From NCBI GenBank assembly GCA_001795385.1, contig MGOU01000013.1, forward strand, positions 1 to 52,445: 52,445 nt of DNA. The letters run 5' to 3'. Position numbers and translations under genes: made by a program. Positions 20,372-49,970 of the stretch are shown piece after piece. Source of the stretch: Clostridiales bacterium GWD2_32_19. GTDB lineage: Bacteria; Bacillota; Clostridia; Lachnospirales; UBA12420. The notes beneath the pieces are model-generated. The model had not been told where the DNA came from. It ran no database searches and saw nothing but the letters and a program-made list of their open reading frames with translations. Every line of letters starts with the position of its first letter. The first letter of the stretch is position 1.

Positions 20372-20485
20372 CTTTTTTATAATTTACCAGCAGTAAAGGC
20401 AAACTTTTTCATACATTTATTTTATGAAACCTTATACTACTAATGCTTATATTTAACAATATCTCTTTTACTTTATAACTATTCG

Positions 20486-23400
20486 TTAATACTCAACCCT
20501 ATTCCTTCCATTTTCTTTAGCTTTATACATACACTCATCCGCTCTTTTTAGTAACATTATCCTATCTTCGCCTTCTCTTAATTCTGCCACACCTATACTT
20601 ACAGTTACTTTAAGTTTTTGAATTTCTCCATTTTCCTTAATGTTCTCAATCGTATTATCTTCTATACTCTTTCTTATTCTTTCAGCAGCAACAACAGCAC
20701 CCTCAAGTCCAGTTTCAGAGAAAATCACTACAAATTCTTCTCCACCGTATCTTGCAGTAAAATCTGCTTTTCTTTTTTCGTATTTTAAATTTGATTCTAT
20801 TTTTCTTACTGTTCCTTCCGTTTTACTAGCTACTTCTTTCAAGACCATATCTCCAACTTGATGTCCATAGGTATCATTAAATATCTTAAAATGGTCAATA
20901 TCCATCATTAGAATGCTTAATTTTTTATTATCTCTTAAGGTTTCTTGCACACTCTTTAACATAATATTATCTAGGAATGCCCTATTAAATATACCAGTTA
21001 AACTGTCTATAGTGGCTTTCTTGAAGAGTTTCGCATTTTCTATAGATACGCCTGCTTGACTTGAAAGTAGACTAATTACATCAAGTTCATCTTCTTTAAA
21101 AAGTCCCCCAACTAATCTATTATCAAGATATAGTATTCCTAAAATAGAATCTTTACTTATTACAGGAACACATATTATAGATTTAATTTCCGTCTTTTTA
21201 TTTTTCAGTTCATGAATAGTTTCAAGATCATCTAAATTTGCCAATAATAATTGTTTCTTATCATTTTCAACTTTTTTTATGATATCATTACTTATCTCAA
21301 AATCTTTTGAAGTCAATTCTTCTTCGCTAATATTTCTTTTTACTTCTGCGTACAGAGCATTATCAATATCAGATTTTATCAATAACAGTCCTCTTTCCGC
21401 TCCTGATAGTTCAATTGCTTTATCTAGTATTCTTTTAAGCAACTCATTTAAATCAAGAATTGAACTTAAAAGTCTGCTTGTATCTAAAACAGTGGTCATT
21501 TTTCTTTCTGTGCTTAGCCTATCAACAGATGTTAATTGTTCAAATGCATTATCTCTTTTTAATTTTAGCTTTTCTTCCAATATATTTAAATATTTTTGTA
21601 TTGCTAATTTTTTAAAAATGTAATATGCCTCTAATAATCTTCCTTTTGCGTCTAAACTTCTTCCTGTATTCTCTAAAAATAACCCATATTCAAAATAACC
21701 TTTTGCTAATTCAATTTTTCTGTTAATCTTTTTAGTTTGATTTATACTTTTTATAAAGTATTTCTCTGCTTTTTTATTTTTGTTAATTAGTGCATAGAAT
21801 TTACCGGCAATTCTTAATGCATGGCCATAATGATTAGGCCATCTTTTTGTTTTTGATAGAGATTTTTTTATTAAATTCTCTAATTCAAATAATGAGATTT
21901 TTATATTTCCTTCAGCTCTATAGAGTTCTATATACGATTCTGAAAGTAGTGAATATAAAAATACAATATATTCAACTAAAAAGTTACTTTTTTCATATAA
22001 TGCTTTTGCTTCACTAAGATGCGAGATTGCACTTTCGTAATTTGATTTTTCCATTTCGAGAATTCCATAATCTGCTGTTGCACAACAATAAATAAAACTA
22101 ATTTTGTTCTTTTTGCTGATTTCTAAAGAACTAGTTACATATTTTTCTGCTTCACTAATTAAACCTTTTTTTGACAGACATCTTGATATATCTTCTTCAC
22201 ATGAAGATATATTATAATTATCTCCTACTTCTTTACATAGGTCTAATCTCATGTGAAAATATTTTAACGCTGAATCATACATGCCGTAATATTCGTATAT
22301 GTACCCATACCCCTGATAAACAACACACAACTCCCATAAATCACCAATTGTTTTATATATTTCCTCCGCTTTTTTAAAATATTCCATGCTCTTTTCATAT
22401 TCGCCTTTCCATGAGTAACAATAACCAAGAAATTGATAACTTTGCGCTTTTCCTTGCTCATCATGAAATTCATCTCTAATCTTTAAAGATCTTTTATAAA
22501 TATTGATAGCTGTACCAAAAAAAGACATTGACATAAACATAGAGGCATAACCACTTAAAGAAATAGAATACTCTTTTGATTTTCCTATCTTTGTTTCAGA
22601 TAAATTAATCATTCTAAGTATATTACAAACAAATTTTTTGGTATCATTCAGTGCATACATCCAATTTAACATAATATAGATATTTATTATCTCCAAATAT
22701 TTATTTTCTATATGTTTCTTTTCTTTTATTTCTCTATTCGCACTTAACCCTAAAATTATCCTTAAAATCAATTCTTTTAATGTTTTAATTGTCAAATCTA
22801 ATTTATTTAACGGAATTTCTTCACCTAATAACTTCAAAGCGTTATTAAGATTTTCTTCGCAAAGATTAAAATCACCTTTTTTCAAATATGCAATACCTAA
22901 TTTTCTATAAATCATTGCTTTCTCTAACTTTGTTTCTTTAAATTCCAATATATTTCCGCAAATAGTTATTGTCTCATCAATTTTACCTATAGTCAAGTAT
23001 ATTTCTGAAAGGTTTTCGCTTGAATCTAACCATTCTTTACTTTCACCCAAATTCTTTTTATATAATAATTTCAAACCTATTTCATAATACTTTATTGCAT
23101 CTTCATTAGAATAAGATTCTTTTGCTTTTTTTGCTGCTAAAAATATATATTTTAATACATTGTCATCATTTTGAGCTTCAACATAATGATGAAGTAAGTC
23201 AAATATAAAACTTTCCGTATCATATCTTTCTAATATCTTCGCAATTTTATTATGCGTTTCCTTCTTTTCATCTTCATCAATTAAGATAAAAAAAGCATCC
23301 CTCACTCTATCATGTACAAACAATAAATTACCGTTACTTTTATTTTCTTCGACAAGTCCTATTTCTATTAACTGATCTAAAATTTTAATTATCTCTTCTT

Positions 23401-25291
23401 GTTTTAAATCTTTTACAAGTTCATAGATCGTACTTTTATTAAATTCTCGACCAATTACAGATGCAATACACATTAACTTTTTTTGCTCATTAGTTATTTT
23501 TTCAATCCTCTTCAAAACCATATCAACGAGTGTATCTGACACATTTAAACTTTTTATCATTCCCCAGTTTTTTATCCATGAACCTTTTTCAAATACTATG
23601 GCTTTCTCACTTACCAAATCATGCAAAATATTTATTGCAAAATAAGGGTTTCCATCTGATTTATCATATATATATATTGCTAGTTCTTTTAAGTTTTCTT
23701 CTCTTTCTCCGAGGGTATTTGAAATTAGCTTTCTTATCTTATCTACATTTAACTTCTTTAGTTCAATCGTTATTAATGAGTATTTGTTATCCACAGCTTC
23801 GCTTTTTATCTTTTCAAGTAAATGTCCTTCTTTTATTTCATTATCCCTATATGTACCTAATATTAATAAATTACTATATTTTATTTTATACAGTATTTCT
23901 CTAAGTAAGTTAAGTGTTGCATCATCTGCCCATTGGAGATCGTCTAAATATATTAAACACAACCTATTCTCTCCTACTAACTTAGAAAAAAAGTCTGCTG
24001 CCACCATCATGAATCTTTTATTTTCTTTATCTTTATCAAGTTCGATTAAAGGTTTTTGCTCACCAATTATTTTCTTTATCTCAGGATTAATTTTAACTAT
24101 AATTTCTCCAAGATCTCCTATATTTTCTTTTATCCTCATAACTTCTTTCTGATGTTCATCATCGTTTAGTTTTTCAAATTTTTTTACATATTCGTCAATT
24201 GCGAGTTTAAATGGGTAGTATGGTTCTTTGTTTTCTTTATTTACGCACCTACCAGATATAAATAGTCCTTCATTTGCATGAACATAATTCTTAACTTCTT
24301 CAACGAATCTACTCTTCCCAACGCCAGCTTCACCTGCAATAAGACAAATGTTTCCTTGCCCATTTTGTGCATATTTTGCCAGAGCTCTTATTTTATCAAA
24401 TTCATCTTCACGCCCAATCATCCTCGTTTTATATGAAATCTTAAGTTTTGGGTCATTCTCTCCAACTACAAATTCTTTTTCTCCATTTTCATATCTTTCC
24501 AAATCATAAAGAAGTCCCTTAGCACTTTGATACCTCAAATCTGGATCTTTCTCTAAAAGTTTTGATATTATTTCATCTATTTCTATTGGAATGTTTTTAT
24601 TAATACCCATTGGTCTTACTGGTATTGTTGCTACTTGTTGATGTAATATCTTTGATATATTTTCGCCATTAAACGATAGTACCTTTGTTAATAGCTCATA
24701 TGCCACAACTCCCAAAGAATATAAATCACTTCTTTCATCTATGTTTCGGTTTAATACGCCTGTACTTTCTGGAGACATATATGAAAATGTACCTATTATT
24801 GCTTCTTTCTCTGTAATTTTTTTAAGTTCAACTAAATGTGAAACTCCAGCATCAAAAATTTTTATGGTTCCATCTTTTAAATTCAGAATACTTGATGAAT
24901 TTATAGATTTATGTATAGCCCCGTTATCATGTAGATGTTTAATTCCATATAATATTTGTTTGATTATCTTTATTATATCATTAATTGAAGAAATACTAAT
25001 CATATTCAATGTTTTCCCATTACTTTTTTCCATCACAATAAAAAGCACATTATCAGCTTCGCCATATTCTATAACATCTAGAAGATTCTCATGCTTTATG
25101 GTTTTAAGTTTTTCTTGTTCTCTTCTAAATCTTATTAAATCTTCTTCATAAACCGTAAGGATATTAGCATTAATAATCTTAAGTGTAACTTCTCTATCTG
25201 TTTCTATATTTGTGGCACTATATAAAACTCCAGAAGTGTTTTTACATATTATCTTTTCAATTTTATATTTACTCATAATCTTTCCAATCAT
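20486..25291 (-). CDS. Multidomain signalling protein: pseudokinase–AAA ATPase–TPR–GAF–diguanylate cyclase
   Basis: 1601 residues, start with GGAGG 6 bases upstream. Residues 1-265 form a Ser/Thr-kinase fold: Lys38 in VTLKI is kept, but the catalytic loop reads IHKSINSSSIL (residues 126-136), so the HRD Asp is Ser129 and the following Lys/Asn are also lost; the metal loop is DAG (147-149). Residues ~290-600 hold an AAA/STAND-type ATPase with GEAGVGKS (320-327) and LIYLDDLQWAD. Then TPR-like helices to ~1220, GAF near 1260-1400, and GGDEF with GGEEF at 1516-1520 and RxxD (1507-1510) 5 residues before, the inhibitory c-di-GMP site. No membrane helix. Probable cytoplasmic c-di-GMP synthase controlled by bound ligand or partner. 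Confidence 0.93.
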   Translation of the reverse strand: MIGKIMSKYKIEKIICKNTSGVLYSATNIETDREVTLKIINANILTVYEEDLIRFRREQEKLKTIKHENLLDVIEYGEADNVLFIVMEKSNGKTLNMISISSINDIIKIIKQILYGIKHLHDNGAIHKSINSSSILNLKDGTIKIFDAGVSHLVELKKITEKEAIIGTFSYMSPESTGVLNRNIDERSDLYSLGVVAYELLTKVLSFNGENISKILHQQVATIPVRPMGINKNIPIEIDEIISKLLEKDPDLRYQSAKGLLYDLERYENGEKEFVVGENDPKLKISYKTRMIGREDEFDKIRALAKYAQNGQGNICLIAGEAGVGKSRFVEEVKNYVHANEGLFISGRCVNKENKEPYYPFKLAIDEYVKKFEKLNDDEHQKEVMRIKENIGDLGEIIVKINPEIKKIIGEQKPLIELDKDKENKRFMMVAADFFSKLVGENRLCLIYLDDLQWADDATLNLLREILYKIKYSNLLILGTYRDNEIKEGHLLEKIKSEAVDNKYSLITIELKKLNVDKIRKLISNTLGEREENLKELAIYIYDKSDGNPYFAINILHDLVSEKAIVFEKGSWIKNWGMIKSLNVSDTLVDMVLKRIEKITNEQKKLMCIASVIGREFNKSTIYELVKDLKQEEIIKILDQLIEIGLVEENKSNGNLLFVHDRVRDAFFILIDEDEKKETHNKIAKILERYDTESFIFDLLHHYVEAQNDDNVLKYIFLAAKKAKESYSNEDAIKYYEIGLKLLYKKNLGESKEWLDSSENLSEIYLTIGKIDETITICGNILEFKETKLEKAMIYRKLGIAYLKKGDFNLCEENLNNALKLLGEEIPLNKLDLTIKTLKELILRIILGLSANREIKEKKHIENKYLEIINIYIMLNWMYALNDTKKFVCNILRMINLSETKIGKSKEYSISLSGYASMFMSMSFFGTAINIYKRSLKIRDEFHDEQGKAQSYQFLGYCYSWKGEYEKSMEYFKKAEEIYKTIGDLWELCVVYQGYGYIYEYYGMYDSALKYFHMRLDLCKEVGDNYNISSCEEDISRCLSKKGLISEAEKYVTSSLEISKKNKISFIYCCATADYGILEMEKSNYESAISHLSEAKALYEKSNFLVEYIVFLYSLLSESYIELYRAEGNIKISLFELENLIKKSLSKTKRWPNHYGHALRIAGKFYALINKNKKAEKYFIKSINQTKKINRKIELAKGYFEYGLFLENTGRSLDAKGRLLEAYYIFKKLAIQKYLNILEEKLKLKRDNAFEQLTSVDRLSTERKMTTVLDTSRLLSSILDLNELLKRILDKAIELSGAERGLLLIKSDIDNALYAEVKRNISEEELTSKDFEISNDIIKKVENDKKQLLLANLDDLETIHELKNKKTEIKSIICVPVISKDSILGILYLDNRLVGGLFKEDELDVISLLSSQAGVSIENAKLFKKATIDSLTGIFNRAFLDNIMLKSVQETLRDNKKLSILMMDIDHFKIFNDTYGHQVGDMVLKEVASKTEGTVRKIESNLKYEKRKADFTARYGGEEFVVIFSETGLEGAVVAAERIRKSIEDNTIENIKENGEIQKLKVTVSIGVAELREGEDRIMLLKRADECMYKAKENGRNRVEY

Positions 25292-25326
25292 ATGTAACCT
25301 CCAAAGTGTTTAGTTACTTTATCTAA

Positions 25327-49689: not shown

Positions 49690-49970
49690 TAAAAATCGTA
49701 AAAGGTAATGATGAGGCGAGTAAGTTAAAAACATTTTTAAGAGAGAGAATATCGTGGCTGTAAGTATTCTCAAACATGATTAACTGAAAACTACCTCTAA
49801 ACTACAATCGAAAGAATAGTCGTTCTCCTGCGTTAAAGGAAGTTAAGAAAATGGAAAACAGAAAATTAAGACCAACTTTTAATTTTCAACTTTCTATTTA
49901 AATAAGGGTGGAACCACGAGAAATCTCGTCCCGTATAATACTTAAGTATTATATGAGACGAGATTTTTTT
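49690..49970 (+). promoter_or_regulatory. T-box leader (threonine) upstream of thrS
   Basis: GTGGCTGTAAGTATTCT near 49754 is the usual Stem I apical loop sequence. The specifier region GAAAACTACC offers ACU at 49790-49792 (or ACC just after), a threonine codon. The T-box AAGGGTGGAACCACG lies at 49904-49918. Terminator arms AAATCTCGTC (49921-49930) and GACGAGATTT (49957-49966) precede a long T-run, with a palindromic hairpin (ATAATACTTAAGTATTAT) between them. Uncharged tRNA-Thr would stabilise the antiterminator and let thrS be made. Confidence 0.9.

Follow-up and report, generated by a model that had tools for sequence, protein, structure and literature searches.

A large clostridial protein with a predicted pseudokinase and an apparently competent diguanylate cyclase in one chain

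The window, a stretch of 52,445 nucleotides from Clostridiales bacterium GWD2_32_19 (contig MGOU01000013.1), encodes a 1601-residue protein which is probably a cytosolic multi-domain switch producing c-di-GMP. It would belong to the kinase–COG3899-like (STAND ATPase) family, with an N-terminal kinase turned pseudokinase. The original prediction, in which a pseudokinase is fused to a seemingly functional diguanylate cyclase, agrees with the sequence, and in a parallel genus (genomes G023, G057 and G154) a dead kinase is kept with GGDEF under strong constraint. Most bacterial pseudokinases have no assigned function, and a dead kinase that shares a chain with an output enzyme of measurable activity offers a direct test of the role of the domain.

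The gene is a single intact open reading frame which covers exactly 20486-25291 on the minus strand (read from 25291 to 20486), a strand left unstated in the original prediction. A strong GGAGG lies 6 bases upstream of the ATG, and the stop codon of rsmB is found 35 bases ahead of this start. The features of the gene and of its product are as follows:

20486..25291 (-): whole gene, 1601 residues, predicted pseudokinase–AAA_16/STAND ATPase–TPR–GAF–GGDEF (open reading frame and Pfam)
25298..25302 (-): ribosome-binding site GGAGG upstream of the ATG at 25291 (sequence)
20379..25313 (-): segment present in the window and absent from the sister species G001 (breakpoints to alignment precision)
24524..25267 (-): kinase-like domain PF00069, residues 9-256 (Pfam, 121.9 bits; AlphaFold2 mean pLDDT 91.9; top PDB matches PknB/Stk1)
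25229..25246 (-): position of the glycine-rich loop, CKNTSG, degenerate (motif and alignment)
25178..25180 (-): K38, the retained VAIK lysine (motif and family scoring)
24890..24913 (-): catalytic loop H127-K-S-I-N-S-S-S134, with Asp, Lys, Pro and Asn lost (motif, alignment and codons)
24845..24853 (-): D147-A-G149 in place of DFG, metal-binding Asp retained (motif and family scoring)
23861..24421 (-): AAA_16 (STAND-type) ATPase domain, residues 291-477 (Pfam)
24311..24334 (-): Walker A, GEAGVGKS, 320-327 (motif)
23930..23953 (-): Walker B, IYLDDLQW, 447-454 (motif)
22352..22561 (-): best TPR stretch, TPR_12, residues 911-980 (Pfam)
21038..21457 (-): GAF domain, residues 1279-1418 (Pfam)
20498..21016 (-): GGDEF diguanylate cyclase domain, residues 1426-1598 (Pfam)
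20762..20773 (-): I-site RxxD, RKAD, 1507-1510 (motif)
20732..20746 (-): active-site GGEEF, 1516-1520 (motif)

The kinase domain scores far above its Pfam cut-off of 31.7 bits, and AAA_16 (81.6 bits), TPR_12 (83.6), GAF (40.9) and GGDEF (PF00990, 138.8) also exceed theirs. The Walker A motif at 320 and the Walker B motif at 447 identify a STAND/AAA_16 ATPase. In the cyclase domain, the translation contains MMDIDHFKIFND, with the metal-site Asp residues, and the inhibitory RKAD is placed five residues ahead of the GGEEF. With both its active site and its I-site intact, this domain appears to be competent; the earlier reading of the Walker motifs, TPR, GAF and GGEEF with RxxD as intact is thus upheld. 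No transmembrane region was detected, the maximum 19-residue hydropathy being 1.67, over the GAF domain.

A kinase-like domain was scored as a pseudokinase when at least one residue among the VAIK Lys, the HRD Asp and the DFG Asp was lost, and in the 1601-residue protein the HRD Asp is replaced by Ser129 (HKS, 127-129). K38 and D147 are kept, and so is E58, the Glu of alpha-C. The residue numbers of the original prediction (Lys38, HKS at 127-129, DAG at 147-149) are right and the loss of the HRD Asp is real, but the damage was understated. The catalytic loop HKSINSSS departs from HRDxKPxN at four positions, so that the Lys, Pro and Asn are lost along with the catalytic Asp (HKSINSSSIL versus H.DI.P.NI in the family), and the glycine-rich loop GxGxxS has degenerated to CKNTSG. 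The columns of P132 and N134, both changed here, show conservation of at least 90% across 45 family members. Twelve invariant family columns (APE, D189, Y191 and others) are intact and the C-lobe is complete. The DAG motif had been correctly read but is by itself weak evidence, because the metal-binding Asp is kept and DFx variants (DFD, DFS, DFY) are common in the family. Since several catalytic-loop residues and the glycine loop have been lost together, the N-terminal kinase is predicted to be a pseudokinase and not the product of a point error.

An AlphaFold2 model of residues 1-275, computed from 45 aligned sequences, that of the window protein and those from the loci of its relatives, has a mean pLDDT of 91.9 and a pTM of 0.90. 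Its top Foldseek matches are PknB from M. tuberculosis and Stk1 from S. aureus (E about 1e-22), in agreement with the sequence search. The model shows that these residues are predicted to adopt a kinase fold and is silent on activity.

Relatives were collected with the ATPase-TPR part (residues 280-1270) as query, and were found in 9 of 392 genomes of the order, 27 of 391 in the class sample and 31 of 299 in the phylum sample. A scan of genome contigs and a plasmid tblastn returned mostly GGDEF-only matches and distant cyanobacterial or proteobacterial relatives. The active sites of 74 kinase-AAA proteins were scored, one of which was truncated and left out, leaving 73 for the counts. Of these 73, 40 lack one or more of the canonical trio of catalytic residues. 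Dead kinases are thus frequent among proteins built on this plan, as a 2025 review (PMC12599244) reports for CP1 kinases. Degraded kinases make up 7 of the 20 members with GGDEF output (13 keep the K38/D129/D147 set) and 33 of the 53 without it (20 keep the set), the latter count being inflated by members which have no N-lobe in frame at all. In several loci (L208, L210, L212, L213, L226, L229, L257 and others), apparently only the kinase C-lobe is present at the N-terminus of the frame, the N-lobe being missing or unrecognisable. The pairing of a pseudokinase with GGDEF, which had been called uncommon, is indeed scarce, but it is recurrent. Conservation of Ser at position 129 in GGDEF-output homologues, raised as a check in the original prediction, was not found: Ser occurs in 1 of 20 and Asp in 14 of 20.

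The nearest clade comprises 16 proteins and has full support in a careful tree which includes the GAF domain. The closest relatives are 30–42% identical to the window protein and mostly combine an intact kinase (HRD) with a histidine-kinase output. The members with this output, 9 of the 16, form a supported group (98/99) in which all nine kinases are intact; six of them were assigned by Pfam (HisKA_3 in 6/6, HATPase in 5/6) and the other three (L239, L263, L264) from their C-termini. The remaining 7 have GGDEF, and their kinase is degraded in 6, the exception being G021. The losses differ: G707 and G767 lack K38 and D147 (HRD is kept in G707), the G023 genus lacks HRD and DFG and keeps K38, and the window protein lacks D129, N134 and the Gly loop and keeps K38 and D147. 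Kinase loss among the GGDEF-output members of the clade thus took at least three mutually exclusive forms, which leaves no single degraded ancestor without reversal, among too few independent cases for formal statistics. As a predictor of kinase loss, GGDEF output holds within the clade (6/7 versus 0/9 for histidine-kinase output) and fails family-wide (7/20 versus 33/53).

A single GGDEF clade is not rejected in the careful tree (p-AU 0.333). A quick tree placed the window protein among the histidine-kinase members and suggested a swap from histidine kinase to GGDEF, which the careful tree does not uphold. The GGDEF-type relative in G707 is itself broken into two frames (L240:4875-6269): some 1.4 kb of additional sequence, which holds small ORFs and a masked N run and has no Rfam match, interrupts it.

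The orthologues of the G023 genus (L278 in G023, L277 in G057, L279 in G154) are 1580-residue proteins with GGDEF, whose kinase-like domain is strongly degraded yet highly conserved (MYLVNPKN, no DFG); in the two that were scanned, AAA_16 is not recognised by Pfam at E 1e-5. Between species, the dead kinase is 76–80% identical, close to the GGDEF domain (82–83%) and above the middle part (60–66%); its dN is 0.14–0.18, with dS saturated. Because its conservation is close to that of the cyclase, the dead kinase is kept by selection in this genus, which supports a non-catalytic role. A pseudokinase–cyclase is therefore better tested in the G023 genus than with the window protein.

The kinase of the window protein has evolved differently. 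Its kinase/AAA distance ratio is 1.08, versus 0.53–0.84 between intact relatives, and the excess lies mostly in the N-lobe, whose terminal branch measures 1.40 versus 0.09–0.68 in intact relatives with histidine-kinase output. The rate of the C-lobe is only moderately raised. This fast evolution may reflect adaptation or relaxed constraint.

The gene is not found in the sister species. In G001 (L287), rsmB is directly followed by a zinc-ribbon gene, and positions 20378 and 25314 of the window join within 16 bases, which makes a clean presence/absence difference of 4.9 kb. The family's two other genomes, which come from the same genus, are both without a relative of the ATPase-TPR part. The composition of the gene does not point to a recent foreign origin, its GC3 of 0.189 not deviating from that of its neighbours (0.221 +/- 0.030). 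The zinc-ribbon gene that flanks the segment adjoins mcsA-mcsB-clpC in this comparison.

The unusually fast evolution of the kinase makes decay a live rival to the switch. The domain would then be a relic without specific task at the N-terminus of a diguanylate cyclase controlled by the STAND and GAF domains, a reading to which we give a real but minority chance. It accounts for the acceleration, especially that of the ATP-binding N-lobe, and for a distance ratio beyond the range of intact pairs; residues have been lost that most degraded relatives retain (N134 is kept in 55 of 74 kinase-AAA relatives), and the gene is accessory. However, the 4.8-kb frame is intact behind a strong ribosome-binding site, the twelve invariant columns remain together with K38, E58 and D147, the C-lobe has accelerated only moderately, and the G023 genus strongly conserves a like pseudokinase. 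The retention of these same three residues could also mean that the domain is still an enzyme with an unusual mechanism, either weak Asp-free phosphotransfer or the transfer of a nucleotidyl or acyl group on the pattern of SelO or SidJ, in which case "pseudokinase" would be a misnomer. We consider this unlikely: the domain has lost its glycine loop as well as the catalytic Asp and the metal-binding Asn, and among the structures listed neither SelO nor SidJ was matched, by sequence or by fold.

A recent strain-specific mutation or a sequencing error in an otherwise active kinase is very improbable. A single genome is available per species and the nearest relatives mostly read HRD, so that the Asp is, as the original prediction had envisaged for this case, present in most of them. 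These relatives are distant, however, and both sister species are without the gene. Four catalytic-loop positions and the glycine loop are altered, and the Ser129 codon, TCT, is at least two base changes away from any Asp codon, which makes an error at this position unlikely. With relatives this distant, no copy of the gene in the sister species and more than one residue changed at a time, the loss of the kinase is better described as specific to the lineage than as a point mutation in a strain.

The c-di-GMP switch is supported by the architecture and its motifs, the PknB/Stk1-like fold, the joint loss of catalytic residues with K38, E58 and D147 kept, the incompatible kinase losses among GGDEF members of the clade next to nine intact histidine-kinase members, the constraint in the G023 genus, and the PilZ gene of the genome. 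Against it stand a kinase that evolves faster than its own ATPase part, the lack of an orthologue in the two sister species, and the intact kinase of most GGDEF-output members of the wider family, so that GGDEF output alone does not predict a pseudokinase. The kinase-like domain is inferred to serve as a sensor or docking module. Deprived of phosphotransfer, it could act as a lid that binds a nucleotide or a partner, or as a docking surface, on the STAND ATPase. Binding of a partner or ligand to the pseudokinase, the TPR or the GAF domain, together with ATP binding by the AAA domain, would alter the oligomeric state; the GGDEF domains would thereby be brought together and make c-di-GMP, which may inhibit the cyclase at the RxxD site. 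More tentatively, pseudokinase–diguanylate cyclase fusions could be a recurrent, selected design, in which kinases of the clade repeatedly abandon phosphotransfer under GGDEF output and become allosteric sensors of nucleotides or partners that set c-di-GMP synthesis; we regard this as doubtful.

The best NCBIfam match over the ATPase region is the TOMM kinase/cyclase fusion TIGR03903, which has the same kinase–ATPase–cyclase logic. The score of 204.2 bits is far below the cut-off of 705.75, and the window protein was not assigned to this family. The cyclase domain of the TOMM fusion belongs to a different family from GGDEF.

The closest described kind is that of the CP1 pseudokinases linked to COG3899, about 40% of which have degraded motifs according to a 2025 review (PMC12599244); the likeness is judged from their description. 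Like them, the window protein has an N-terminal Ser/Thr-kinase-like domain, a predicted ATPase and a GAF (FhlA-like) domain, and no transmembrane segment (PMC12599244). The AAA_16 and TPR domains come after the kinase, as judged from Pfam; CP1 kinases are linked to a COG3899 ATPase, to which this part may correspond. A CP1 member from Leptospira, Q8F1M0, also reads HKS (PMC12599244). As partner domains the review lists FhlA/GAF and PAS, with no mention of GGDEF, which is the output here. The CP1 proteins described come mainly from cyanobacteria and proteobacteria, and the window protein also lacks the Asn. The review also presents EssB/YukC, a bacterial pseudokinase that serves as a non-catalytic scaffold, comparable by analogy only, since it is a membrane protein of type VII secretion with another architecture (PMC12599244).

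An 1826-residue protein from Clostridium thermocellum, described in 2005 (PMC1262709), joins a kinase, six TPR and GGDEF in a single large clostridial chain like that of the window, and the same study proposed that Ser/Thr kinases share c-di-GMP output. By its description, this protein should keep the catalytic Asp, unlike the window protein, because sequences without it were set aside (PMC1262709). The nearest relatives (G879, G764, G707 and others) share the plan of the HstK-type Ser/Thr kinase–histidine kinases, as far as HstK is described in PMC1262709: intact kinase–AAA_16–TPR–GAF–HisKA_3/HATPase. The window protein differs from that description by GGDEF instead of the histidine kinase and by its dead kinase. 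In the literature searched, we found no description of a pseudokinase with GGDEF output in the kinase-AAA family, recurring in several lineages, nor of a bacterial pseudokinase acting as an allosteric sensor that sets c-di-GMP synthesis. The window protein is a member of a known, almost unstudied kind and is not unique.

The genome of the window species contains at least one PilZ gene, other GGDEF proteins and two more kinases, both of which have the catalytic Asp. One 550-residue protein of this genome (L005, G000:C33:16588-17361) is a second kinase with YKD replacing HRD, followed in the same chain by a P-loop ATPase-like region. Elsewhere in the window, a T-box leader (RF00230, 97.9 bits) lies at 49699-49936 on the plus strand.
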